59,708 nucleotides of DNA from Candidatus Krumholzibacteriota bacterium (GTDB taxonomy: Bacteria; Krumholzibacteriota; Krumholzibacteriia; Krumholzibacteriales; Krumholzibacteriaceae). Shown piece by piece: positions 29,119 through 57,195 of the stretch. The stretch's first letter is position 1. Every line of letters begins with the position of its first letter. Where the stretch lies: contig JAFGCX010000014.1 of the NCBI GenBank assembly GCA_016932415.1, forward strand, positions 1 to 59,708, read 5' to 3'. The notes below the pieces were generated by a model. That model saw only the letters and a program-made list of their open reading frames with translations. It ran no database searches and was not told the origin of the DNA. A program made the position numbers and the translations under genes.

Positions 29119-32100
29119 TCATCTTATGACTCCAACTCTTCTGCGCATTGAATGAATAGTCTCTCCCGAACGGACAGCCTCTATGACAAGAAGGTATCCT
29201 CCGCTTGCCACCATCGCGCCGTTTCCGTTTTTCCCGTCCCATTCGATCTCGTTCAAGCCGGCAAGGCCGCCGGCGTCCCCCTGGGCGATGCTCTTTCTGA
29301 AGACAAGCTTGCCGCTGAGAGTGAAAAGTTTCATCGTGACTGAAGCGTCGTCGGAAAGGTTATAGGCGATCGTCGTATTGCCTTCGTCGGGATGGAACGG
29401 GTTCGGATAGTTCGTTACCGATCCTCCCGGCGACGAAGGATCGACCAGCGCAGTTTCTATCTGCAAAGAGGCGGCAAGTTCGTTCGACTTGACCCTTACC
29501 ATCCCTATCTCGGCTTCGTACGGGCTGAAAAATTCTGCTCTTGCTATTCCTGCTCCATCTGTGAATTCGTCGATCGGCATGATCGATCCCGCGCCTCCGG
29601 CAAGTTCGAATTCGACCGGTTGATCCGGAATACCGTTTCCGAACTCGTCAAGCACGCTGGCTCTTACGATCATGCTTTTTCTGCCGCCGATCCACGGCAG
29701 ATCGCTTTCAACAGCCATCCTGTCCGGCGGAGCAGGCGCGACGGCTACGACCCCGGTCATCCCTGGAGCGCTCCCCTCGTCATCGCGGATGACTAGGATG
29801 ATCGGTTCCGCTTTTGTGTATGTCTGGCGGATAGACCTGATACCCTGCAACAGCTGGAAACTGGGACTGAGAAGCACGCCTCCTCCCGGATTGCCGTTTT
29901 CCGCGTTGAGCACTTCAACCCTGGCGAAGGAGTTGACCTCCTGCATTACCGCCCCTGCGTCGTTTGTCACTTTGACTGAAAGGGTGAATGATTCTCCGGC
30001 GACCACCTGGTCGCGATCGATCTCGACCTCGTAATGGAATCCGCTGTTGATCATCCTGACCTGCGAGACAGCCTCCTCCATCGAGGGATCAGATATGTTC
30101 GAAGCAGTGATAAGCTGATACCCGCCAGTGGACAGATTGACCGAGACCTCCAGAACGCCATCGACAAGGAATCCCCCGCTGATGATCTCACCGAGCTGAT
30201 CGGTCGAGACAAATTCTATGTCATCATTGGCCTCTCCGACCGGATTCCACCACTGGTCGGTGGCCAGTATCTTCACGGTAAATGTGTGGTTTATCGTCTG
30301 ATCGGTCGGCGTTCCCGCTTTTCCTCTTTCGGACCCTGGAACAAGCTCTTCGCCTGGAGCGATCATAATGATCTTTGAGAATGGTCCTGGAAGGATGGTG
30401 AAATCATCCGATTTGAATACCGTCGTCTCCTCAATATCGATATCATTGGCAAATATATTGTGCTCTCCGGCTGCATAGAATGTCGCGCTGAGAAGAGCAG
30501 TACCATTGGAAAGCTGCGTTTCGGGAGCGATTTCGGCATAGGCATCGCTCGATATGACTCTTACTCGATCGTTTACATCGGGAACGCGGTTTGACCATCT
30601 GTCTATCGCGACGATCATTATATCAAAACTCCCCCCGGCATCCTGCCAATCGGGCATTCCGTAGAGACCGGGATCCATTCCCCCCTGGGGAGTCTGCCCC
30701 GGCATGACGACCTGGAGAGCCACATACTCACCGGGAAAGACCTCTATCGTACTACTCGTCCCGATATTTGGCGGAATCGAATAATCTATGCAGGAAAAGA
30801 GGATATCCTCGCCGGCGCCGAAGAAGGTGACTTCTCCGCGCCAGGCGCCGCTTGTGAACTTGATCGTCTCCGGAGAGATGCTGCCCGGCCCTGTATTGGC
30901 GGCGAGCATCGCGTAACCGTTGTAATCTGTAAGGGGATTTCCTTCATTATCTATGACATTGACCCCCGCCATGACCGGAATGCCGGCTGTGACCGGCCCG
31001 GTAACCGGCTCGATGACGAAAGTCGGCTCGTTTGAGATGACCGGTACAACCTCTGTCGTCATCCCGATGATATCGCAATCAGTCAGGTCGCTGACCGTAA
31101 GAGTCCGGTTTCCCGCAGTCATGAAGGTCATATTGAATTCTATGGCTCCGCCGGCGAAAGATCCAGTGAACGGGACCGGGACGCCCGGATCGGTGGAGGT
31201 GACCATGATCTCGTCCGAACTCTCCACCTGGTTCCAGAACTCGTCGGTCGCGTACCCGTAGACCCTGAACCCATACCCGGCTGTCTGCGTGGCCGGAGAT
31301 CCGCTCAGGCCGGCCAGCGTCGATGGAGCCTGTGCCTGCCCCGGCACGAGAAGCTGTACTCTTGCCATTTCACCTGGGTGTACGCTGAAACAACCGCTTG
31401 TCCCATTGATAGTCCGGTCCACGATCGCGACAGCCGATATCTTTACGCTGCCGCCCGCGCATTCGGAACTGTTTTCATCAGCCAGAAAGAGAGTGACCGC
31501 TCCCGACCAGAAGCCTCCCTGAAGCTCGATCGTGTCGGGGCTCATCCGTCCATTGCCGATACTCGTCAATTCTGAAAGTTCTATGACTGAGGAAAAACCT
31601 GTGTCGGTATTGCCTCCCGCGTCAACGGCGCGAATCTCGAGATCGAACGGCGCGCCTGCGTACTGGTCCGCGTATATCTGCGAGATCTCAAGCGCTGCAG
31701 CGTCGCCAGTTCCGCTGGCTGCTTCGACGGGAGAGGATGTCGCGGAAAAATGTTCACGGTCGGTAAGATCCTCTGCCGTAAAGGTGAAGATCCCGGATGA
31801 ATTGAGAGTGACAAGCGCCCTCAGTTCTCCGGAGATCAGCGGCCTGGAGGGAGGAAGTACGGCGTTCGGATCGGTCGAAGTGATCCTTATAACGTGATTG
31901 ACACCGGCGACGGTGTTCCATTCACCATCACACGCCCTGACGATCACCTCGAAAGGTACGCCGGTTATCTGTAAGACCGGCGTGCCAGTCTTGCCCTGGT
32001 CGGTTCCCGGCGCGGGCGACTCGCCCGGCAACAGGATCTGAAGCTGCGGATAGGGGCACGAACCCGCTCCAGTATTGAATATCATTATCAGCGCCGCGCA

Positions 32101-32151
32101 GATTACGACGGTCTTCAGCAATCGATCTGCTTCTCTTCTTGCCTTGCTCAC
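29119..32151 (-). CDS. Secreted protein with four tandem Ig-like repeats and a YPNPF/FlgD-Ig C-terminus
   Basis: 1010 residues from GTG at 32151. A signal segment (LLKTVVICAALIMIFNTGAGSC) is followed by four repeats of a two-part module. Each begins LxxPGExxxPGTxxGKxGTPxxQT, continues FxVxVxAxDxxWNxV and then VxSTDP. Between them are interval domains containing INVxDxxGNPxTDYN. A Big-1/invasin-like domain (GGRKSMIVRASVLDEFGNGIPDQPVEFEL) precedes the last 90 residues, which carry NYPNPFHPDEGNTTIAYNLSDDASV and WDGKNGNGAMVASGGYL, the sorting-type FlgD-Ig domain. Likely surface-displayed or adhesive. The start is uncertain: a TTG at 32235 is also in frame, but GGGAG is 11 bases before the GTG. 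Confidence 0.8.
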   Translation of the reverse strand: MSKARREADRLLKTVVICAALIMIFNTGAGSCPYPQLQILLPGESPAPGTDQGKTGTPVLQITGVPFEVIVRACDGEWNTVAGVNHVIRITSTDPNAVLPPSRPLISGELRALVTLNSSGIFTFTAEDLTDREHFSATSSPVEAASGTGDAAALEISQIYADQYAGAPFDLEIRAVDAGGNTDTGFSSVIELSELTSIGNGRMSPDTIELQGGFWSGAVTLFLADENSSECAGGSVKISAVAIVDRTINGTSGCFSVHPGEMARVQLLVPGQAQAPSTLAGLSGSPATQTAGYGFRVYGYATDEFWNQVESSDEIMVTSTDPGVPVPFTGSFAGGAIEFNMTFMTAGNRTLTVSDLTDCDIIGMTTEVVPVISNEPTFVIEPVTGPVTAGIPVMAGVNVIDNEGNPLTDYNGYAMLAANTGPGSISPETIKFTSGAWRGEVTFFGAGEDILFSCIDYSIPPNIGTSSTIEVFPGEYVALQVVMPGQTPQGGMDPGLYGMPDWQDAGGSFDIMIVAIDRWSNRVPDVNDRVRVISSDAYAEIAPETQLSNGTALLSATFYAAGEHNIFANDIDIEETTVFKSDDFTILPGPFSKIIMIAPGEELVPGSERGKAGTPTDQTINHTFTVKILATDQWWNPVGEANDDIEFVSTDQLGEIISGGFLVDGVLEVSVNLSTGGYQLITASNISDPSMEEAVSQVRMINSGFHYEVEIDRDQVVAGESFTLSVKVTNDAGAVMQEVNSFARVEVLNAENGNPGGGVLLSPSFQLLQGIRSIRQTYTKAEPIILVIRDDEGSAPGMTGVVAVAPAPPDRMAVESDLPWIGGRKSMIVRASVLDEFGNGIPDQPVEFELAGGAGSIMPIDEFTDGAGIARAEFFSPYEAEIGMVRVKSNELAASLQIETALVDPSSPGGSVTNYPNPFHPDEGNTTIAYNLSDDASVTMKLFTLSGKLVFRKSIAQGDAGGLAGLNEIEWDGKNGNGAMVASGGYLLVIEAVRSGETIHSMRRRVGVIR

Positions 32152-32480
32152 GATCTTCACGCTCCCGTTTAAATCAAATCCGTTTTTTACACTTTTTATC
32201 GTTTGTTCAATCGATCTGCCTCTTCGATGAGACAATCCTACAGACCCCCGAACGGCAAGAGATATGCCACGGACCGATCGTGAAGCCGAAGCGGGGAATA
32301 GCCCTGTCTAACCTCCGGAAGAACAGGCTTTTGATTGAAACAGGACTGGAAATGGAAGAATTAAGGAGATAATGAGACTGCGCGGGGGAAAGGAATCGAT
32401 TTCCTTCTACTGGGAAAAATTTTCACCGGTATCAGCCGGACAGAGGCGTCCGAGCGGTTGGAAAGGCATGTTGAAGAAGC

Positions 32481-33224
32481 CTAATCTCCTTCCGCGGGTC
32501 TCTTTTCCCCGTCGCCACCCGATATCCTGAACCATTGATCGCCAGAGATCGATAACGTGACGCCTTTGTGACCTTTGACGCTCCAGATATATGTTTCCCC
32601 TTTTTTAAATACACCGGTTGTCGAATCGGGAAGGGTCAGGACCATGCCTTTTATATTCTCACGGCTGAATATCCCGGCGAGATCGGCGTCGAATATCTCC
32701 AGAGAAAAGAAATCAAATTCTTCATCAGTCTTCCATCTGAAGATCCCGGGCGCTTCACCCAGATCCCCCGCAGGCTCGATCAACCTGATCTTGATTTTTT
32801 CCGCTCCGTCGCCGCGGACCGGATCGTTCGTCGGTCCATTCTCGACATCCCCCGGACCCCGGCCGACGATCGACGCTATGATGATCAAAACTACCGCCGC
32901 TGCCGACGCCAGCCACCTTAGTTGAAATAACCCGCCGGTCTTTTTGCCCGGGCGACTCGTTACGGTGGATGAGCGTTTGATGATATCTTCAGAAAAGAAT
33001 CTCTCCAGTCCGGATCTCGCTTCTTTCCAGCCCGATGCTCTCTCCAGCTCCGTATCGCCGTCGATAGACTCAAACCGATCGATCATCATCAACTCGTGCC
33101 TGCAGAGAGGACAGGACCTGATATGACCCTCCATCTTTGACGCTTCTGCCTTGCCGAGATCTCCCGATCTGTACAGGGCAAGCATCTCAATGTCAGGATG
33201 GCCATCGCCGTTTCTCTTTATCAA
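32481..33224 (-). CDS. Zinc-finger transmembrane anti-sigma factor
   Basis: 247 residues. The anti-sigma zinc finger is visible as HPDIEMLALYRSGDLGKAEASKMEGHIRSCPLCRHEL (His-x3-Cys-x2-Cys). One membrane helix lies at about 106-122 (WLASAAAVVLIIIASIV), and an exported domain of about 120 residues follows with a beta-sandwich pattern: RLIEPAGDLGEAPGIFRWKTDEEFDFFSLEIFD...YIWSVKG. It should hold the ECF sigma factor encoded five bases upstream in the transcript. The start is TTG at 33224, about nine bases after AAGGGG. The Ig-like periplasmic half may be the signal receiver. Confidence 0.88.
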   Translation of the reverse strand: MIKRNGDGHPDIEMLALYRSGDLGKAEASKMEGHIRSCPLCRHELMMIDRFESIDGDTELERASGWKEARSGLERFFSEDIIKRSSTVTSRPGKKTGGLFQLRWLASAAAVVLIIIASIVGRGPGDVENGPTNDPVRGDGAEKIKIRLIEPAGDLGEAPGIFRWKTDEEFDFFSLEIFDADLAGIFSRENIKGMVLTLPDSTTGVFKKGETYIWSVKGHKGVTLSISGDQWFRISGGDGEKRPAEGD

Positions 33225-33229
33225 ATCTT

Positions 33230-33802
33230 CTACCCCTTGCTTATGAGCTTCCTGAATTTGCGCCTTGCGTTCTGGATAAGAGTCCTCGCTCCCGTCAGGT
33301 TCTCGCGCCGCATGATCGACGATATCTCTCTTATCCTCATCCCTTCATAATAATGCAGGATAAATGCCTCCATCTCGTCGTCGGAGATCACGCCCTCGGC
33401 TTTTTCGACAAACCATTCGATATCGTCCGATATCTCCAATCTCTTTCCAGGTTCGTCGCCACCCTGGACGAAATCGGTCAGTTCATCCAGTACAAGCATC
33501 CTGTTGTACCATTTTCTCCTGTTGCTCGCTATCTCCCCGAGGCAGTAATTCCTCGTTATCCTGTATATCCAAGTGGAAAGACTCGACCTGAAAGAGAAAG
33601 AATCTATCTTCGCGAAGACCCTCATGAGGATCTCCTGCGCGCAGTCCAGAGCCTCCTCGGCGTCATGGGTATACGAGAAACACCACATGTATATCTTTTT
33701 GTTATACCTGCCGAAAAGTTCCTCGCAAGCTTTTTCCGGACGATCCGCGGCTATCAGCCTTGCCAGATCCTCATCGGTGATATTCTCAAGTCGTGCTCTC
33801 AA
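33230..33802 (-). CDS. ECF-type RNA polymerase sigma factor
   Basis: 190 residues. Region 2 reads LFGRYNKKIYMWCFSYTHDAEEALDCAQEILMRVFAKIDSF then SSLSTWIYRITRNYCLGEI. Region 4 is EAFILHYYEGMRIREISSIMRRENLTGARTLIQNARRKFRKLI. It recruits RNA polymerase to genes under control of the adjacent anti-sigma factor. The gene begins at TTG (33802), about nine bases after GGAGAG, and is 50 bases downstream of the CHAT gene. The recognition helix carries an extra basic segment compared with common ECFs. Target promoters were not identified in this window. Confidence 0.93.
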   Translation of the reverse strand: MRARLENITDEDLARLIAADRPEKACEELFGRYNKKIYMWCFSYTHDAEEALDCAQEILMRVFAKIDSFSFRSSLSTWIYRITRNYCLGEIASNRRKWYNRMLVLDELTDFVQGGDEPGKRLEISDDIEWFVEKAEGVISDDEMEAFILHYYEGMRIREISSIMRRENLTGARTLIQNARRKFRKLISKG

Positions 33803-33852: not shown

Positions 33853-36800
33853 CTACTTCGAAAAACTGTTTTCCGCCACACCGTCGCCGGTAAGGATAAA
33901 GGAAGCCCACAGGCCCGGATTCCCTTCCACTTCATCCCAACCCCTCGCTTCAGGCCCGAGCTGTCTGAGCGCCTCCGAGGGGGAACTCCCTCCGGTCACT
34001 CTTTCATAAAAGGAGACCATGAATTTTTCCGCAAAACTGTCGGGGACGTCGGTCAGCGAAGCCAGGACGCACCGGCTGCCGGCATGAATAAACGCCTGGG
34101 CAAGCCCGAGTATTCCCTCGCCGTAAGAGATCTCACCGCCTGCCGAGCTGCACGCCGACAGGGATACAAAGGTTCCTACGAGATCAAGGGAAGCTATCTC
34201 CCTCCACTGCAGCAGCCCGTCCTCATGTACCGAGGCGAGGCTGTCCGGGCCTGGAGAATCGGGTTCGAGTACGATGAACGATCTTCGCGGATTATCATCG
34301 TCGACATGGCTGTGCGCGGCGCAATGAAGAAATGAGATCATGCCGATCGGCGCATTCTTGAATCTCCTCTCGCTCGCATCCTTTCCAGTGATCACGAGAG
34401 ACTTATTGAAAAATGAGGCGACCCTCACCGCCTCTCGTTCAGCATTTGGAAGGTTCTGGACCGGAATGTCGGTGAACGGGTATACCCTCTTCGAATCAAA
34501 CTGCTCACTCTGTCCCCGGTATCCGAAAGAGATCATTTCGTGGAGTCGCTCCACGTCACCGGCCATCTCACCGGGGCGATTCCTCAGGTAAAAAAGAGTC
34601 CTGAGAGAAGGCGTGTAGAATATCTGGTGACTGTCCCCGAGGTACCCACTCGCACTTCTCAGCATAGAAAACGACACCCGTCCCAGAAGGCCATCGGGAA
34701 TAATGACAAGCCTGTCCCCTGCCCTGATATCACCCTCGGCTGGCCTGAGGAGAAGATCGTATATCTGCCTTTGCGCTCTTTCGACAAGATGAGCGGGGAT
34801 ATTTCCTTCTCCGCCGGCGCTCCGCCGGTCACCACCGGTTTTGAAAAGACTTAGAAAATATCCCGCTTTTTTTTCAATCTCAGACCTTCCAGGCAGGGTA
34901 TAGTATTTCACCATGCCACCGGAGATAGAAACAAGATATGATCTTTCGATCCCCAGAAAATATGAAAGCAGCAGTTCGCCTGGATAAAGAGCCGAGAGGA
35001 GTTCTTCGGGCTCTTCAAACTCCGGACAGACCTCCGATATCCGCCAATCGCTGCCACCCGCTTTTCTCAACTGAAGCTTCCTGAAATCCTCTTCTATGCG
35101 TTCGATCCCCGAATTCATCTTTTTTCTCTCATCATCCTTCAATCCGCCTTCCTGGAGTCTTTTCTGCAGAAAGGACAGTCTTGATACCAGTTCGAGTTCT
35201 TCCTCGTCGGCGCCCTTGCCGTCATCAAACGAATTCTCCGTCCTCGCCTTTCTCAGGCGAGCGGCAAGGACCCACGCCCTTGATCGTTCCATGTATCCGA
35301 ATGCTTCTAATGTTCCATTCCCGTCATCTTCACTATCGAGAAGCAGGGCGACGATCCTTTCATACGGCGTGATCGCCGATCTCAGCATATGCCTCTGGAA
35401 CTGTCCGGAACCTGTCATGAACCTCAGGGACTCGACTGTCCTGACAGCTTCTTCGAAGCATTCTCTCGCCATGGCGAAATCCTTTTTCTCGCGGTACCTG
35501 TCACCCAGTTCGCTCAGGCACTTCCATCTCAACTCCTCGAGTCCTTTCACTCTTGCCATCGACACGGACTGGTCGAGATAAAAGATCGATGAATCTCTGT
35601 CGGCACAGGCCATGCCTTCAAGGTACAGCGCCCTGATCCCGTAGAGACTGTCCCTGTTTTCGGCGGATATCAGCTTTCTGTTTTCCTGGATATATTTTTT
35701 CGCCTCGAAAATGTCTCCGGCGGCGATGTAGTGGGAAGCGAGATTGTTGTTCGCCCATATGAGATCACCCGCTTCATCTGTCTTTATGGCAGTTTCGAGG
35801 TATTCCAGGTAATACTTTTCAGCCAGATCGAATCTTCCCGAGACCATGTAGATCGATCCCATCCCGCTGGCCACTCTTTTAAGAAGATCGATATTATTGC
35901 CGCTTGCGGCGATCTCTTTCGCTTTTTCATAATGTTCGATCGAGGCCTGGTAATTGCCAAGGTAGTAGTAAGCCGAACCGATACTGAAGTGTGCTTCCCC
36001 CTCGCCGCTCAGATCGCCGATTTCCCTGTAGATCTTCATCGCCTCGAATTCGTTGGTCAGCGCTTCCCTGTATCTTCCACCGAGGTCGCAGACCATTCCT
36101 GTCGAATTGAGACACCACGCCGCCCCTTTAAGGTCTCCAAGCTTCACCTTTAATTCGTACGCCCGCCGATAGTATTCTTCCGCCCCGGCGAGATCACCGA
36201 ACCTGTGTTTCGCGAGAGCCATCCCAGCGAGCGCCCAGTTCAACCCGTACAGGCTTTTCATCTTTTCATATTCACTGACAGCGTGTTCGTAATGCCGTAT
36301 TGCTTCGCTGTACTCCCCGTCGAGGACCTGGATATAGGCCAGTCTCAACCTCGCGCCAAGTTCACCCCAGGTGTTGCCGCTGCCCAGGTGATTGTCGAGA
36401 GAACGCCTGAAATATTCCCTTGCCTTTCCCTTGTTTCCCTGCGTCTCGGCGATCGCTCCGAGGCCGTAGTCAATGAACCCGAGAAGCCACATCGAGCCGA
36501 TCGATTCCGCTTTCTCTTCAGCCTCTTTTAGGTATCCCGAAGATCTTGCGTTGTCTCCAAGCTTCCCCATGACCTGGCCCATGTTGTTCAGGATTATCGC
36601 CTGGTTCTCGATCGCGCCAAGTCTTTCGTACTCCTTCAGCGCGTCAAGGTAATATCCTGATGCCTCCTGGAATTTCTGCCGTTTTTCGTTTAACCGTCCC
36701 CGGCCTGAGAGGCAATATGCCTTGATCTGCCTGTATTGATGGTTTTCCCGGTTCTCAAGGACGAAAGAAAAAAGGCTGTCCGCGGTGGATAGATCGTCGG

Positions 36801-37401
36801 AGATATTTGCGATCTCCGCTTCGAGAGAGAGTATCTCCAGATCGATCCTTTTCTGATATGGCAATCTGGACAGGCAATCGCGGGCTTTCTTTACCAATAA
36901 TTCGGCGCCGGAAGAATTCCTTGCGCCTATCTGCGATTTTATTCCTTCAATAAAACATATCAGCGCTGAAAGGCCGTCGCCAGCGGCAAGATATCCGGAG
37001 CCAGCATCCGATAATCCTTCTGCAGCCCCCTCGAAATCGCGCGAGCGCTTCAGCAGGACACTTCTGATAAAGGATCTGAAATGAAGTACTTCACCAGGAT
37101 CGACATTGTCTGCTGAAACAGCTTTCAGGAGGCGGTCAGAATCGAGTATTCCGAAGCGCGATCTCGCCTTTATCAGAGCATCGGACGCAATGATCGATCC
37201 AGGATCGTCTCTGAGTAATTTCAGGCAATATTCGACAGTCTCGGAGTTCTTTCCCGTATCAAGACGCCTGGCAAGCGATTCGAACTCCTTCAATCTTTCC
37301 GCCTGATCCTTCCCCCCCGGGCTATTTGCCGGAAGCTGCGCGGCAGAGACCGACGCGTTAAGAAGGAGCAGTGACAGAAAGACCGGTATCATACGCTTCA
37401 T
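33853..37401 (-). CDS. Secreted TPR-CHAT protein (caspase-like peptidase domain)
   Basis: 1182 residues. The signal peptide is MKRMIPVFLSLLLLNASVSA. Residues 40 to about 760 form a long TPR array. The best repeats (about 230-560) are NB-ARC/LGN-like, for example GEYSEAIRHYEHAVSEYEKM and GRYREALTNEFEAMKIYREIGDLSGEGEAHFSIGSAYY. A coiled linker precedes the CHAT domain (about 840-1175). His1030 in HCAAHSH and Cys1084 in LSACSSAGG form the catalytic pair, followed by GEGILGLAQAFIHAGSRCVLASLTDV. The active site is intact, so it is probably a protease. Being exported, it could process an envelope substrate. It leads the series that continues into the ECF sigma and anti-sigma genes. Confidence 0.93.
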   Translation of the reverse strand: MKRMIPVFLSLLLLNASVSAAQLPANSPGGKDQAERLKEFESLARRLDTGKNSETVEYCLKLLRDDPGSIIASDALIKARSRFGILDSDRLLKAVSADNVDPGEVLHFRSFIRSVLLKRSRDFEGAAEGLSDAGSGYLAAGDGLSALICFIEGIKSQIGARNSSGAELLVKKARDCLSRLPYQKRIDLEILSLEAEIANISDDLSTADSLFSFVLENRENHQYRQIKAYCLSGRGRLNEKRQKFQEASGYYLDALKEYERLGAIENQAIILNNMGQVMGKLGDNARSSGYLKEAEEKAESIGSMWLLGFIDYGLGAIAETQGNKGKAREYFRRSLDNHLGSGNTWGELGARLRLAYIQVLDGEYSEAIRHYEHAVSEYEKMKSLYGLNWALAGMALAKHRFGDLAGAEEYYRRAYELKVKLGDLKGAAWCLNSTGMVCDLGGRYREALTNEFEAMKIYREIGDLSGEGEAHFSIGSAYYYLGNYQASIEHYEKAKEIAASGNNIDLLKRVASGMGSIYMVSGRFDLAEKYYLEYLETAIKTDEAGDLIWANNNLASHYIAAGDIFEAKKYIQENRKLISAENRDSLYGIRALYLEGMACADRDSSIFYLDQSVSMARVKGLEELRWKCLSELGDRYREKKDFAMARECFEEAVRTVESLRFMTGSGQFQRHMLRSAITPYERIVALLLDSEDDGNGTLEAFGYMERSRAWVLAARLRKARTENSFDDGKGADEEELELVSRLSFLQKRLQEGGLKDDERKKMNSGIERIEEDFRKLQLRKAGGSDWRISEVCPEFEEPEELLSALYPGELLLSYFLGIERSYLVSISGGMVKYYTLPGRSEIEKKAGYFLSLFKTGGDRRSAGGEGNIPAHLVERAQRQIYDLLLRPAEGDIRAGDRLVIIPDGLLGRVSFSMLRSASGYLGDSHQIFYTPSLRTLFYLRNRPGEMAGDVERLHEMISFGYRGQSEQFDSKRVYPFTDIPVQNLPNAEREAVRVASFFNKSLVITGKDASERRFKNAPIGMISFLHCAAHSHVDDDNPRRSFIVLEPDSPGPDSLASVHEDGLLQWREIASLDLVGTFVSLSACSSAGGEISYGEGILGLAQAFIHAGSRCVLASLTDVPDSFAEKFMVSFYERVTGGSSPSEALRQLGPEARGWDEVEGNPGLWASFILTGDGVAENSFSK

Positions 37402-37455: not shown

Positions 37456-38148
37456 TTACAACTGGATACCGAAGATATGCGTAAGCGTGTAATAGATTCC
37501 GACTAGTATGAATATCGCGCCAGTTCCTCTCCGGGCCCATTTCTCCATAAGAACGATCCTTTCGTAAGCCTGCCCGACCCGTTTGGCGCCGAGCGCGATG
37601 AGGATGGCGAAGAGCATGACGGGCAGCCCGGTGGCAATACCATATATGACAGGCAGGACTACTCCTGACCTCAGCCTTAGCGCCACGGGGATGAGGCTTC
37701 CAAAAAAAAGGGCCGCCGAGACGGGGCAGAATGAAAGGGCGAATATCACTCCAAGGAGGAACGATCCCCACATCCCGAGAGATTCGATCTTTTTCTGAAA
37801 TCTCTCCCCCGCTCCACGCCCCGCCATATTGATCTCGATCAACTCGATCAGGACCATCCCGGTAAGTATCAGGAGAGGGCCGAGAAAGATGTTCATGTAC
37901 TTCTGCAGGTTGTGCGAGATATACGGCGCTGAAAGCAGGCTCGTCACAAGGAATACTCCGACAACGAGATAGGCAAAGGTACGCCCCGCCGTATAGAGAG
38001 CTCCCGACGCCAGGACCCTTGAGGGTGATCCGACATTGCGGCTTGTGAAGGAAATAGCCGCTATATTGGTCGCCAGGGGACATGGGCTGATCGATGTCAG
38101 GATCCCGAGCCAGAATGCTGAAGCTATCCCTAAAAACAGTTCTGTCAC
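37456..38148 (-). CDS. arsG: ArsG-type CcdA-like permease
   Basis: 230 residues, six TM helices, DsbD/CcdA fold. The N-terminal motif WLGILTSISPCPLATNIAAISF and the second FALSFCPVSAALFFGSLIP place the paired cysteines in the membrane as in CcdA-like electron carriers; this subtype is annotated as an arsenical efflux permease of the ArsG family. GTG at 38148 overlaps the arsF stop as GTGA. Last gene of the first arsenic locus. Whether it moves electrons or arsenicals is not settled by sequence. Confidence 0.82.
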   Translation of the reverse strand: MTELFLGIASAFWLGILTSISPCPLATNIAAISFTSRNVGSPSRVLASGALYTAGRTFAYLVVGVFLVTSLLSAPYISHNLQKYMNIFLGPLLILTGMVLIELIEINMAGRGAGERFQKKIESLGMWGSFLLGVIFALSFCPVSAALFFGSLIPVALRLRSGVVLPVIYGIATGLPVMLFAILIALGAKRVGQAYERIVLMEKWARRGTGAIFILVGIYYTLTHIFGIQL

Positions 38149-38678
38149 TTCTCCACCGCCTCTAGAAACTCTTCAGTCTCTTCCTGAATGTAATCGATGA
38201 AGCTTTCCTTCTCTTCGTATACGAGTTCCCAGACGCTGTTAAGATTTTTCCATTCCTGTCTTTTACCCTCTCCAATCCGTTCGAGCACGACTGAACGGGT
38301 GGAAAGCTCGAACTCTTCTACATAATGCTCATTCTCGGGATCTTCCACATCGACTACCCGCCAAACGAGTGTCCCTTTTTTCAGCTCGTCTGCGAATCCC
38401 GTCTCGATCGCTTCTTTTGCGTATGCTTCTATCGTAAGGCAGGTCTTGCATCGCGTCTTACCATGAAAGTAATATGCCACGACTGTGGCCGGTGCCGGGG
38501 CGAGGCCGGATGAACCTTCATCCAACGTTTCATTCCGCCCGGCCGATCCCTGATCTTCCCTGCCAGACAAAGTCTCTCCGCCTTTTGAAGTGACCCCCGT
38601 CTCTCTCGCTACCAGATAAACGACACTCACTGCGACAAACAGAAGAAGCACCGCGGTGACTATCCTTTTTGATCTCAT
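38145..38678 (-). CDS. arsF: ArsF-like exported redox protein
   Basis: 177 residues. A signal anchor (IVTAVLLLFVAVSVVYLVA) is followed by a low-complexity linker and a thioredoxin-like domain with the CxxC-type motif YYFHGKTRCKTCLTIEAYAKEAIETGFADEL. Family members are annotated as ArsF, found beside ArsG. It probably receives electrons from ArsG across the membrane; that is inference. ATG at 38676-38678 is preceded by GGAGG. About 100 bases separate it from the small thioredoxin gene. Confidence 0.8.
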   Translation of the reverse strand: MRSKRIVTAVLLLFVAVSVVYLVARETGVTSKGGETLSGREDQGSAGRNETLDEGSSGLAPAPATVVAYYFHGKTRCKTCLTIEAYAKEAIETGFADELKKGTLVWRVVDVEDPENEHYVEEFELSTRSVVLERIGEGKRQEWKNLNSVWELVYEEKESFIDYIQEETEEFLEAVEK

Positions 38679-38780
38679 CTGACCTTACCTCCGGTGATTT
38701 CCAAAATGTCTTCTCCATGATCTCCGGGAGACTACATGAAGTCCTGTCCCGCCCGAATCACCTGATCCCGTGATTTTCCT

Positions 38781-39023
38781 CTATCCACGATCGAGAAGAT
38801 CGGCGATCTCATCGACAGGCAGGACTTTTCCCAACGATTTTACTTCGCCGTCAATGACCAGCGCCGGAGTCATCATCACGCCATAACTGATTATCTCGTT
38901 GATATCGGTTATCTTGATCAGCTCATATTCTATTCCAAGCTCCCGCGCGGCGCTCTCGGCGTGTTCAGCTAGTTTTTTGCATTTCGGACATCCAGTGCCC
39001 AGTATTTCTATCTTCTTCATCAT
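38781..39023 (-). CDS. Small thioredoxin-like protein (redox-active disulfide protein 2 type)
   Basis: 80 residues: KIEILGTGCPKCKKLAEHAESAARELGIEYELIKI, with active site CPKC at about 12-15, then YGVMMTPALVIDGEVKSLGKVLP with the cis-Pro in TPAL. This compact type travels with ArsP/COG0701 permeases in metal-resistance operons. Its start ATG overlaps the permease stop (ATGA) and AGGAGGT abuts it. Confidence 0.92.
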   Translation of the reverse strand: MMKKIEILGTGCPKCKKLAEHAESAARELGIEYELIKITDINEIISYGVMMTPALVIDGEVKSLGKVLPVDEIADLLDRG

Positions 39024-40384
39024 ACCTCCTGGCCAAAAACGGCTCCATAGATCATGCCGGTTATAGTCGCCATCACGATAACGAGCGATACGAATACAAT
39101 GGTTTTTTTCGTCCCCATCACGCTGCGGATCACCAGCATGTTAGGCAGGCTCAGAGCGGGTCCGGCAAGAAGGAGCGCCAGCGCCGGCCCCTTGCCCATG
39201 CCGCTGCCGATCAACCCCTGCAGGATCGGTACTTCGGTAAGAGTCGCGAAATACATGAACGCCCCGGCAAGCGAAGCAAAGAAGTTCGAGAAGAGCGAAT
39301 TGCCGCCTACCGCTCCTGAGACCCATGATGCCGGAATCAGGCCCTCATGTCCCGGGCGCCCGAGAAGCAGTCCGGCAATCAGGACTCCACCGAGAAGAAG
39401 AGGCATTATCTGACGGGCGAACCCCCATGTCTGCCCTGACCATTCGTTTCCCTCTCCGCTGTCTGAAGCAGCAGCCCAGGAAAGCCCCGCTACGGCAACA
39501 GCGAAAGCGATCATCGGCTGATCCTTGAAGATCATGGCCAGGATCGCCGTAGCCGCGGCGGCCAGAGCGACCTTGACCAGTGACAACCTTATCCAGACAA
39601 CAAGCATCAGCGCGAGCGCCAGACCGAAGATCGAGGTGATGACCCATTTTGCCGAATAAACGGCGCTCCAGAATCCTTCATCGACCGCTGGCCGGCCCCA
39701 GTTTGCAAAGACAAGTACTCCGACCATCGCGGCGAAAAACAGGGCGTTCTGCCACAATGGCCTGGTGACTTCAGGTTCGCCGCTACCAGCCCGCGCTTCG
39801 GCTTTCATCTTTTCCTCATCTCTGAATATAAAATGCATCGACAGACCGATGACTATCGAAAAAACGACAGCTCCGACAGCCCTGGCAATACCGAGTTCCA
39901 GTCCGAGGACCCGCGCCGTCAGTACTATTGCCAGGACATTAATCGCCGGGCCCGAGTACAAAAAAGCGCATGCAGGCCCGAGACCCGCCCCCATGCGGTA
40001 GATGCCGGCAAAGAGAGGAAGGACGGTGCAGGAACAGACAGCGAGTATTGTTCCAGAGACTGAAGCTACTCCATAAGCGAGAACCTTGTTCGCTCTGTAC
40101 CCGAGATATTTCATCACAGATGCCTGGCTGATAAATACCGCTATCGCGCCGGCGATAAAAAAAGCGGGGACAAGGCACAGGATGACATGCTCGCGCGCGT
40201 ACCATCTGATGAGTTGAAGGGATTCCCAGAAAGCGGTATTCAACCTTGCCCAGCCGCGTATCGCCTCGACCGGCAGGTAAAAACAGGCGGCAAAGACTGC
40301 CAGGCCGATCACCATCGTCTTCCATTCTTTTTTCCAGTCCATAAAAACAGTCCATCCATTTCCGCTGTCAGCCCTGACAATCAT
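39020..40384 (-). CDS. COG0701/ArsP-type permease
   Basis: 454 residues with about ten TM helices in two halves. The first-half signature is GYRANKVLAYGVASVSGTILAVCSCTVLPLFAGIYRMGAGLGPACAFLYSGPAINVLAI, in which CSC is characteristic; the second half has SLAGAFMYFATLTEVPILQGLIGSGMGKGPALALLLAGPALSLPNMLVI. ArsP members export trivalent organoarsenicals; others of this COG move different metals. It is directly downstream of arsR. ATG at 40384 is used, but Met16 (MDWKKEWKTM) is equally likely. Confidence 0.86.
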   Translation of the reverse strand: MIVRADSGNGWTVFMDWKKEWKTMVIGLAVFAACFYLPVEAIRGWARLNTAFWESLQLIRWYAREHVILCLVPAFFIAGAIAVFISQASVMKYLGYRANKVLAYGVASVSGTILAVCSCTVLPLFAGIYRMGAGLGPACAFLYSGPAINVLAIVLTARVLGLELGIARAVGAVVFSIVIGLSMHFIFRDEEKMKAEARAGSGEPEVTRPLWQNALFFAAMVGVLVFANWGRPAVDEGFWSAVYSAKWVITSIFGLALALMLVVWIRLSLVKVALAAAATAILAMIFKDQPMIAFAVAVAGLSWAAASDSGEGNEWSGQTWGFARQIMPLLLGGVLIAGLLLGRPGHEGLIPASWVSGAVGGNSLFSNFFASLAGAFMYFATLTEVPILQGLIGSGMGKGPALALLLAGPALSLPNMLVIRSVMGTKKTIVFVSLVIVMATITGMIYGAVFGQEV

Positions 40385-54768: not shown

Positions 54769-55182
54769 ATGGATAAACTGATTGCAGCATTCAAGGCGCT
54801 GTCCGACAGGAACCGGCTCCGGATCGTATCAGCTCTTTTGAAACACGACGAGCTGTGCGCCTGTCAGCTTACAGAGCTGATTCAAGTCGCAGGCGCGACG
54901 GCCTCCCGTCACATGGGAGTTCTGATTTCATCCGGTCTGGTCGACAGTAGGAAAGACGGACGATGGGTCTATTATCGGATTCGCAGGGAGCGGGATGATT
55001 TCGGTGTATTGATCGATTGGATCGAATCACGGCTCAGCAGCGATCCGGATATCGCGCTCGACGCGAAAACACTTGATAAAATCACATCGTGTGATCCCGA
55101 CGAACTTTGCAGAAAACAGCGCGGCGATGAATGTTGCCCGAAAATAAAAGCTTACACGGATCAGGGAGAAGATCGTAAGTAA
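54769..55182 (+). CDS. arsR: ArsR-family repressor (second arsenic locus)
   Basis: 137 residues. The winged-helix is ALSDRNRLRIVSALLKHDELCACQLTELIQVAGATASRHMGVLISSGLVDSRKDGRWVYYRI. The sensing helix carries the Cys-x-Cys pair in ELCACQL, as in classical arsenite sensors. A C-terminal tail has more cysteines (CDPDELCRKQRGDECCPK) that might add a further metal site. It should repress this operon in the absence of arsenite. GAGG lies just upstream of the ATG. Confidence 0.94.
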   Translation: MDKLIAAFKALSDRNRLRIVSALLKHDELCACQLTELIQVAGATASRHMGVLISSGLVDSRKDGRWVYYRIRRERDDFGVLIDWIESRLSSDPDIALDAKTLDKITSCDPDELCRKQRGDECCPKIKAYTDQGEDRK

Positions 55183-55193
55183 AAAGGAGTGGG

Positions 55194-55994
55194 ATGATGA
55201 CGGCGAACACAGATAAAGATCATATCCGGGAGCAGGTTCGAACCCGCTATTCGAAAATCGCAAAAGAAAACGGCTCCTGCTGCGGAGGCGGTTGCTGCGG
55301 ACCGGCTCCTTTGGGGAACCCTGGTTTCTCGACCCGCCTTGGCTATACAACCGCCGAGTTGTCAGCGGTTCCGGATGGAGCGAACATGGGTCTTGGCTGT
55401 GGTAATCCGCAGGCGATAGCCGAGATGAAACCGAAAGAGGTCGTTCTTGATCTCGGATGCGGTGGAGGGTTCGATTGTTTCCTTGCCGCTAAACAGGTTG
55501 GCGAAGAAGGGAAGGTCATCGGCGTAGACATGACACCTGAAATGATTGCGAAGGCGAGAGAAAATGCCCGAAAAAGCTACTACACGAATGTGGAGTTCCG
55601 CCTGGGCGAAATTGAGCACTTGCCTGTAGCTGACAACTCTATTGATGTAGTTATATCCAATTGCGTCATAAATCTGTCCCCGGCAAAAAAGCAGGTTTTT
55701 AGCGAGGCACACCGTGTATTGAAGCCAAATGGCCGGCTTGCCGTATCCGATGTGGTCGCAATATCCCCCATCCCGGATGAGGTTCGGCAGAATATGGACG
55801 CGCATTGCCGATGCGTAGGGGGAGCGGCTCTGGTAAATGAGATCGGACAGATGCTCAGCAATGCCGGTTTTTCCGAGATATCCATTGATATCAAGGAAGA
55901 GAGCAACCAGTTTATTCGGGACTGGTTCCCGGGAAGTGGAATGGAAAATCATGTTCGTTCAGCGGTAATTGCCGCCGTGAAACAAGGAGGGTAA
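55194..55994 (+). CDS. arsM: Arsenite S-adenosylmethionine methyltransferase
   Basis: 266 residues. It methylates As(III), using SAM and thiols. Signature N-terminal cysteines ([10 protein letters not shown]), the SAM loop [66 protein letters not shown], and a third Cys region HCRCVGGA all match ArsM, so arsenic-binding Cys residues are present. Start ATG at 55194 (next codon is also ATG) follows AAAAAGGAG. It sits 11 bases after arsR and just before the exporter. Confidence 0.95.
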
Positions 55995-55998
55995 CGCG

Positions 55999-57195
55999 GT
56001 GAATATTGAAACTTGTCCGGCGAATGATCGACATATGACCAGCATCTTCGAGAAATATCTGACTGTATGGGTCGGATTGTGCATCGTTGCCGGGATTCTT
56101 CTCGGCAAAATCGCCCCGGGACTGGCGCGGACACTGGACCAGATGGCTATTAATATCAAGGGAGCACCCATCGTCTCGATCCCGATCGCCGTCTGCCTTT
56201 TCTTCATGATGTATCCGATCATGGTCAAGATTGATTTCGCCCGCGTCGTCAAAGCAGGCAAGAGCGGAAAGCCCGTTTTTCTGACCCTGTTCATCAACTG
56301 GTGCGTCAAACCGTTCACCATGTACGCCATCGCCACGCTGTTTCTTGGTGTTCTCTTTAAAGGATTGATCGGTACCGAAGCGATGGATCTGGTCAAAATG
56401 CCGTTCGGGCTCGACCTGCCGGTCGGAGCGGTGCACGGCGCCGGAACAATTGTGTTGCAGGAAGGCGTGAAAATGCTGCAGATCCCCCTCTGGCGCAGCT
56501 ATTTTGCCGGATGCATCCTGCTGGGAATAGCTCCCTGCACAGCCATGGTTCTGGTCTGGGGATACCTGGCGCGTGGCAATGATGGTCTCACCCTCGTCAT
56601 GGTCGCTATCAACTCACTGACCATGCTGGTGCTGTATGGCGTTTTGGGTGGCTTCCTGCTCGGTATCGGCAGACTGCCTGTTCCATGGCAGGCGCTGCTG
56701 CTGTCCGTCACAATCTATGTGGCGTTGCCACTGGTTGCCGGATATTTCTCGCGCAAATGGGTTATCGGGCGCTGGGGTGAAGAATGGTTCAGGAAAAGAT
56801 TCCTGCACCTGCTCACGCCCGTGACGATCGTCGCGCTGCTGCTGACCCTGGTCCTGTTGTTCAGCTTCAAGGGCGAAACGATTCTGGCCAACCCGCTTAC
56901 CATCCTCTGGATCTCCATCCCGCTCTTCATCCAGACCATGCTGATCTTCGGACTGGGCTACGGCGCCGCTAAAATGCTGAAACTGAAATATGAAGACGCC
57001 GCGCCGGCGGCTATGATCGGAGCTTCCAACCACTTCGAAGTTGCGATCGCCACAGCTGTGATGCTGTTCGGACTATCCTCGGGAGCGGCGCTGGCGACAG
57101 TTGTCGGAGTACTGATAGAAGTGCCGGTGATGTTGATGCTTGTCGGGATCTGCAAGCGCACAGCCGGCTGGTTCGCGGAGTCACAAGCGACGTAG
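55999..57195 (+). CDS. acr3: ACR3-family arsenite efflux permease
   Basis: 398 residues with ten TM helices. The conserved segments are [42 protein letters not shown], and [27 protein letters not shown], in which the Cys in [10 protein letters not shown] is needed for transport in this family. [19 protein letters not shown] is in the second half. Start GTG at 55999 with AAGGAGG about eight bases upstream, four bases after the arsM stop. Together with arsR and arsM it gives sensing, methylation and efflux. As(III) is the expected substrate. Confidence 0.95.

Follow-up and report, generated by a model that had tools for sequence, protein, structure and literature searches.

Known Systems Related to the Locus

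The release of ECF sigma switches usually falls to proteases of the DegS, PrsW or Prc type. In the DegS/RseA/RseP/sigma-E and PrsW/RsiW/SigW systems, a site-1 protease cuts the membrane anti-sigma factor outside, and an M50 protease then cuts it inside. The closest described relative of the present locus is the DdvA/DdvS system of Myxococcus xanthus, in which an extracytoplasmic TPR-CHAT part and a CHCC/ZAS anti-sigma part are joined in a single chain, DdvA, which is paired with an ECF sigma factor. A 2024 paper on DdvA is said to have described an incomplete His-Cys site and to have proposed autoproteolysis followed by RseP action. The sigma partner of DdvA, DdvS, governs an antiphage island (PMC12288465). 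A further related system is Craspase, where the TPR-CHAT protein Csx29 cuts Csx30, an inhibitor of the ECF factor CASP-sigma, and the cut relieves the sigma factor (PMC10028731). The sites cut by Craspases and other known TPR-CHATs are not conserved; cleavage between L and D, M and K, and A and S has been documented (PMC11106740).

The TPR-CHAT Gene and Its Protein

The window, i.e., the whole stretch of 59,708 nucleotides that was analysed, belongs to a Candidatus Krumholzibacteriota bacterium and carries a TPR-CHAT gene with the following features.

33853..37401, (-) strand: TPR-CHAT protease gene, product predicted to be exported, 1182 aa, ATG start (ORF, Pfam, AlphaFold2 model)
37339..37401, (-) strand: putative signal peptide, spanning roughly residues 1-21 (judged by its hydrophobic core and an AxA-like site)
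35413..37305, (-) strand: TPR superhelix, residues 33-663 (Pfam TPR matches and AlphaFold2 model)
33883..34776, (-) strand: CHAT peptidase domain, residues 876-1173 (Pfam PF12770)
34312..34314, (-) strand: codon of catalytic His1030 (alignment column)
34150..34152, (-) strand: codon of catalytic Cys1084 (alignment column, invariant)

The CHAT domain was matched with an E value of 2.4e-50 and 172 bits, against a cut-off of 24. In the CHAT alignment, H1030 and C1084 occupy the conserved catalytic His and Cys columns, which bears out the intact pair named in the preliminary description. By domain score and catalytic residues the protein falls in the CHAT peptidase family PF12770, and peptidase activity is predicted. 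The dyad is also intact in all sigma-linked CHATs that cover both residues, with one exception. In this protein, L059:4154-8284 of genome G027, Arg replaces the catalytic His, and it is possibly a pseudoenzyme or the result of a sequencing error.

Six TPR_12 stretches were found by Pfam in the window protein. In the AlphaFold2 model, obtained with a 17-row alignment (mean pLDDT 83.5), TPR-type helix pairs extend from about residue 33 to 663 and are followed by a helical connector up to about residue 780 and then by the alpha/beta CHAT fold. The TPR array claimed earlier is thus present, and only its length, given as more than 700 residues, was slightly overstated. The N-terminus, MKRMIPVFLSLLLLNASVSAAQ, begins with charged residues, which are followed by a hydrophobic core and by small residues in the cleavage region. 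Judged by the sequence, it is built like a Sec signal peptide, in support of the export predicted in the preliminary description.

The Sigma Factor and Anti-Sigma Factor Genes

An ECF sigma factor gene starts 50 bases 3' of the CHAT stop, as had been described before, and the anti-sigma gene starts 5 bases after it. Their features are given below.

33230..33802, (-) strand: ECF sigma factor gene, 190 aa, TTG start (Pfam Sigma70_r2, 1e-13; NCBIfam sigma70-ECF)
32481..33224, (-) strand: predicted single-pass anti-sigma gene, 247 aa (weak zf-HC2, zinc motif with TM, DdvA profile match)
33102..33125, (-) strand: zinc motif HIRSCPLC of the anti-sigma, residues 34-41 (H/C/C invariant in 14 relatives)
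32862..32912, (-) strand: transmembrane helix of the anti-sigma, about residues 105-121 (hydropathy and model)
32811..32819, (-) strand: V-R-G, conserved in the juxtamembrane linker (disordered in the model), candidate cut site (conservation and model)
32523..32789, (-) strand: residues 146-234 of the anti-sigma, an FnIII-like domain predicted to be extracytoplasmic (pLDDT ~96, fold matches)

The sigma factor scores 68.1 bits with TIGR02937, for which the cut-off is 42.9, and is thereby an ECF family member. For the 247-aa protein, the Pfam zf-HC2 match falls below the cut-off. The residues H34, C38 and C41 (Hx3Cx2C) followed by one transmembrane helix give it the ZAS-type single-pass architecture, and it is accordingly named here as a putative anti-sigma factor of this type with predicted sigma binding. 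Its ectodomain is about 125 residues long. Within it, residues 146-234 were confidently modelled as a beta-sandwich with fold matches to FnIII and similar domains, while the linker that connects this domain to the membrane helix is disordered in the model.

Comparison with DdvA, Craspase and Separase

In the Foldseek search, the top matches for the window CHAT protein were the cryo-EM structures of DdvA, labelled "transmembrane anti-sigma factor" (8rw5, E 9.9e-16, and 8rot), and separase and the Craspase TPR-CHAT ranked after them. Profile searches against PDB sequences agree with this: the CHAT profile matched 8rot only (E 1.6e-7), and the anti-sigma profile hit the DdvA fragment 8rlz (E 1.3e-4), its match to the N-terminus of 8rot being weak (E 0.014). 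Since both profiles match 8rot, DdvA corresponds to one polypeptide made of the two genes found here.

The window module resembles DdvA/DdvS in having a TPR-CHAT, here only predicted to lie outside the cytoplasm, a ZAS-type anti-sigma and an ECF sigma factor. It differs in that the TPR-CHAT (33853-37401) and the anti-sigma (32481-33224) are separate genes, the anti-sigma has an FnIII ectodomain of its own, the dyad is complete whereas that of DdvA reportedly is not, and no CRISPR/CBASS island was seen near the module. The module is therefore a split, dyad-complete counterpart of DdvA. The preliminary description had called the linkage of an extracytoplasmic TPR-CHAT to an anti-sigma factor a new setting. 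This does not hold in full: DdvA is already such a protein, its structure has been solved, and it ranks first among the structural matches. Exported CHAT proteins, too, are common across many phyla. A natural fusion was also encountered in the survey. In L096:6485-9766 (G002), the C-terminus of a TPR-CHAT runs on into two TM helices, then a linker with ILRG and an FnIII domain, and this locus has neither a sigma gene nor a zinc domain.

Like the window, the Craspase locus groups a TPR-CHAT with an ECF sigma factor and an inhibitor of sigma. However, Craspase is cytoplasmic and is switched on by gRAMP/Cas7-11 together with target RNA, whereas the window CHAT carries a predicted signal peptide; moreover, Csx30, unlike the predicted inhibitor in the window, does not belong to the zinc TM anti-sigmas. 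PADLOC gave no Cas match among the scanned proteins, and the genes around the module encode ars-type transporters, secreted proteins and a kinase. Membership in Craspase (type III-E) was rejected on the absence of cas genes among the neighbours and on the signal peptide. Separase shares with the window protein a helical repeat array followed by a caspase-like domain and gave strong Foldseek matches, but it is a eukaryotic, intracellular enzyme that cuts cohesin. In comparison with DegS/RseA and PrsW/RsiW, the site-1 role in the window would fall to a CHAT cysteine peptidase of clan CD whose gene shares the operon. Our literature search for a split TPR-CHAT/anti-sigma operon in earlier work, which was incomplete in coverage, gave the Craspase paper as the sole relevant find.

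Conservation of the Gene Linkage

The host genome contains six CHAT genes, all with an N-terminal hydrophobic segment. An ECF sigma gene and a zinc/TM anti-sigma gene adjoin three of the six, against about 0.3% expected per gene. The other three exported CHATs have no sigma neighbour, and CHATs must therefore have other jobs as well. In a survey of 80 Krumholzibacteriota genomes, the order CHAT-sigma-anti-sigma was kept in all 13 close orthologs with full context, and the anti-sigma was of the ZAS/TM type in the same gene order wherever the contig was long enough. Of 78 genomes, 16 have a close CHAT ortholog, 15 have the FnIII ectodomain (found with a profile built without the R-G linker, threshold E < 1e-30) and 14 have both (P 1.7e-12). 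In the two genomes that have the CHAT ortholog and no FnIII match, G047 and G067, there are contig edges at this place. With a broader FnIII ectodomain profile, at least 36 of the 62 matches in the phylum lie within 6 kb of a CHAT. The linkage of the CHAT gene to the sigma/anti-sigma pair is not due to chance, and the trio is conserved across Krumholzibacteriota. The preliminary description had seen the CHAT gene as leading a sigma-factor gene series, and conserved order, co-occurrence, the C-terminal anchor (see below) and the one natural CHAT-TM-FnIII fusion support a real link.

Other arrangements also occur in the phylum, namely sigma-anti-sigma-CHAT and divergent ones. The two further modules of the host genome, L008:2820-7603 and L007:5395-9658, each comprise CHAT, sigma and anti-sigma genes; one is divergent with a different ectodomain and one has the window order. 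In the divergent modules L075, L078, L080, L082 and L084, the anti-sigma ectodomain is TPR-like in look and not FnIII, and a V-R-[TAS] motif lies close to the membrane. Outside the phylum, most CHATs were found without a sigma neighbour. A same-strand sigma gene preceding CHAT was also seen in contigs labelled Gemmatimonadetes/Gemmatimonadota, Chloroflexi and Saprospiraceae and, more loosely, in those labelled Omnitrophota.

Membrane Anchor and Topology

A C-terminal TM helix with a net-basic tail was found in 34 of 41 same-strand sigma-linked CHATs, compared with one of 10 unlinked and one of 11 divergent CHATs, the loci of this count having been picked by CHAT or anti-sigma similarity and not as a random sample. 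As the tail is net-basic, the positive-inside rule places it in the cytoplasm with the TPR-CHAT part facing outward. The predicted signal peptide and the basic C-terminal tails of anchored relatives thus favour an extracytoplasmic TPR-CHAT. The window CHAT and L072 (G014) have no anchor, which is present in most of their clade (tree of 15 rows, support 100/99). Because the anchor is absent, both are probably soluble, and in lacking the anchor the window protein is atypical of its clade.

The Linker Motif as a Candidate Cut Site

The linker of the anti-sigma factor holds a motif of a hydrophobic residue, R and a small residue. It was first noticed in 14 sequences and held in more that were fetched later. 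When each linker was shuffled, the motif was expected in 12 cases, and it was observed in 38 of the 40 CHAT-linked ones; for the stricter form, [VILM]RG, the numbers are 31 CHAT-linked anti-sigmas observed and 2.6 expected on shuffling. The R-G motif is also present in all five FnIII anti-sigmas without an adjacent CHAT. On this ground its reading as a CHAT-specific site was rejected, and it is kept as a candidate cut site. Taken together with the non-conserved sites of Craspases, its presence in anti-sigmas without an adjacent CHAT suggests that another protease, or a structural role, may account for the motif.

Proposed Mechanism and Alternatives

The trio is conserved and resembles a two-protein DdvA; the protease therefore probably senses an outside cue and releases the switch. 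We propose a three-gene envelope-signalling module, in which the TPR-CHAT would sense a signal and cut the anti-sigma linker in trans to free the sigma factor, and we give this proposal about an even chance of being right. According to it, the TPR-CHAT would be exported and, in most relatives, also tethered to the inner membrane via the C-terminal helix, while the zinc domain of the anti-sigma would keep the ECF sigma factor at the inner membrane face with the FnIII domain exposed outside. A signal from outside the cytoplasm, for which the TPR array is the probable binding site, would switch on the CHAT peptidase, which would then cut the flexible linker between the TM helix and the FnIII domain (site-1 cleavage). 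RseP-type intramembrane proteolysis followed by cytoplasmic proteolysis would set the sigma factor free. One M50 site-2 protease gene is present in the host genome. We count this gene in favour of the proposal, along with the conserved linkage, the dyad, the predicted topology, the DdvA and L096 fusions, the disordered linker with its conserved motif and the Csx29 precedent. Points against it are the linker motif in FnIII anti-sigmas that have no CHAT beside them, the non-conserved sites of known TPR-CHATs, the three exported CHATs of the host genome that lie apart from sigma genes, and the negative outcome of a search for a common ECF-like motif upstream of the CHAT genes. That the site-1 protease is itself an extracytoplasmic, separase/Craspase-type TPR-CHAT cysteine peptidase in the operon of its anti-sigma target is put forward tentatively, at somewhat short of an even chance.

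The evidence from linkage and topology also fits a co-sensor that does not cut, for which the protection of RseA by RseB is a model. In this case the TPR-CHAT would bind the FnIII domain and steer the anti-sigma allosterically, and catalysis would be incidental or directed at another substrate. TPR arrays usually bind proteins or peptides, and the periplasmic part of DdvA, with its reportedly incomplete active site, would make sensing without cutting possible. A pure binder would not need the dyad, though, and this is nearly always kept in sigma-linked CHATs. We consider the co-sensor unlikely. An effector role, which we consider fairly unlikely, would turn the order of events around: the sigma factor would drive the CHAT gene, whose product would be an envelope protease for quality control, defence or self-killing, and another site-1 protease would control the anti-sigma. 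The CHAT gene is often first in the operon or divergent from sigma, as a regulon member would be; the same genome has exported CHATs without sigma neighbours, and the linker motif is shared by FnIII anti-sigmas without an adjacent CHAT. On the other hand, the near-obligate pairing of this CHAT with one ectodomain family points to direct contact, as do the DdvA and L096 fusions, and a simple GAAC-spacer pattern revealed no ECF-like promoter shared by the regions upstream of the CHAT genes, some of which look sigma-70-like by eye.

Processing of surface proteins, with CHAT as a sortase-like peptidase on FlgD-tailed secreted proteins, is very improbable. The genome encodes 72 FlgD_ig tails and several CHAT genes adjoin one, but with FlgD-tailed genes this abundant a CHAT gene can lie next to one by chance, the genome has five C25 gingipain-type peptidases for work of this kind, and the sigma/anti-sigma linkage would be left unexplained. 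The sortase candidate was rejected, as the 72 genes account for the adjacency.

If cleavage by CHAT is true, an exported CHAT tied to an anti-sigma factor would be a new class of site-1 protease, and separase-like enzymes would be linked to envelope signalling. The periplasmic TPR-CHAT of DdvA would then be related to a two-protein form, the split and catalytically complete module being the protease version and DdvA its fused form. Through the split form, the catalytic role of periplasmic CHATs would become directly testable: since its dyad is complete and the ectodomain that would be the substrate is small and soluble, cleavage could be assayed simply, with two proteins.

Genomic Neighbourhood

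The anti-sigma gene is followed by a gene for a secreted protein of 1038 aa (29119-32235), which has Ig-like domains and ends in a C-terminal tail of FlgD type. Two arsenic-type clusters lie on the contig, at 37456-40384 and 54769-57195. Just upstream of the CHAT gene are an ArsP/SaoE-like permease, ArsF and ArsG, the last ending 54 bases before CHAT, and the second cluster comprises an ArsR-like regulator, a methyltransferase and an SBF-type transporter.
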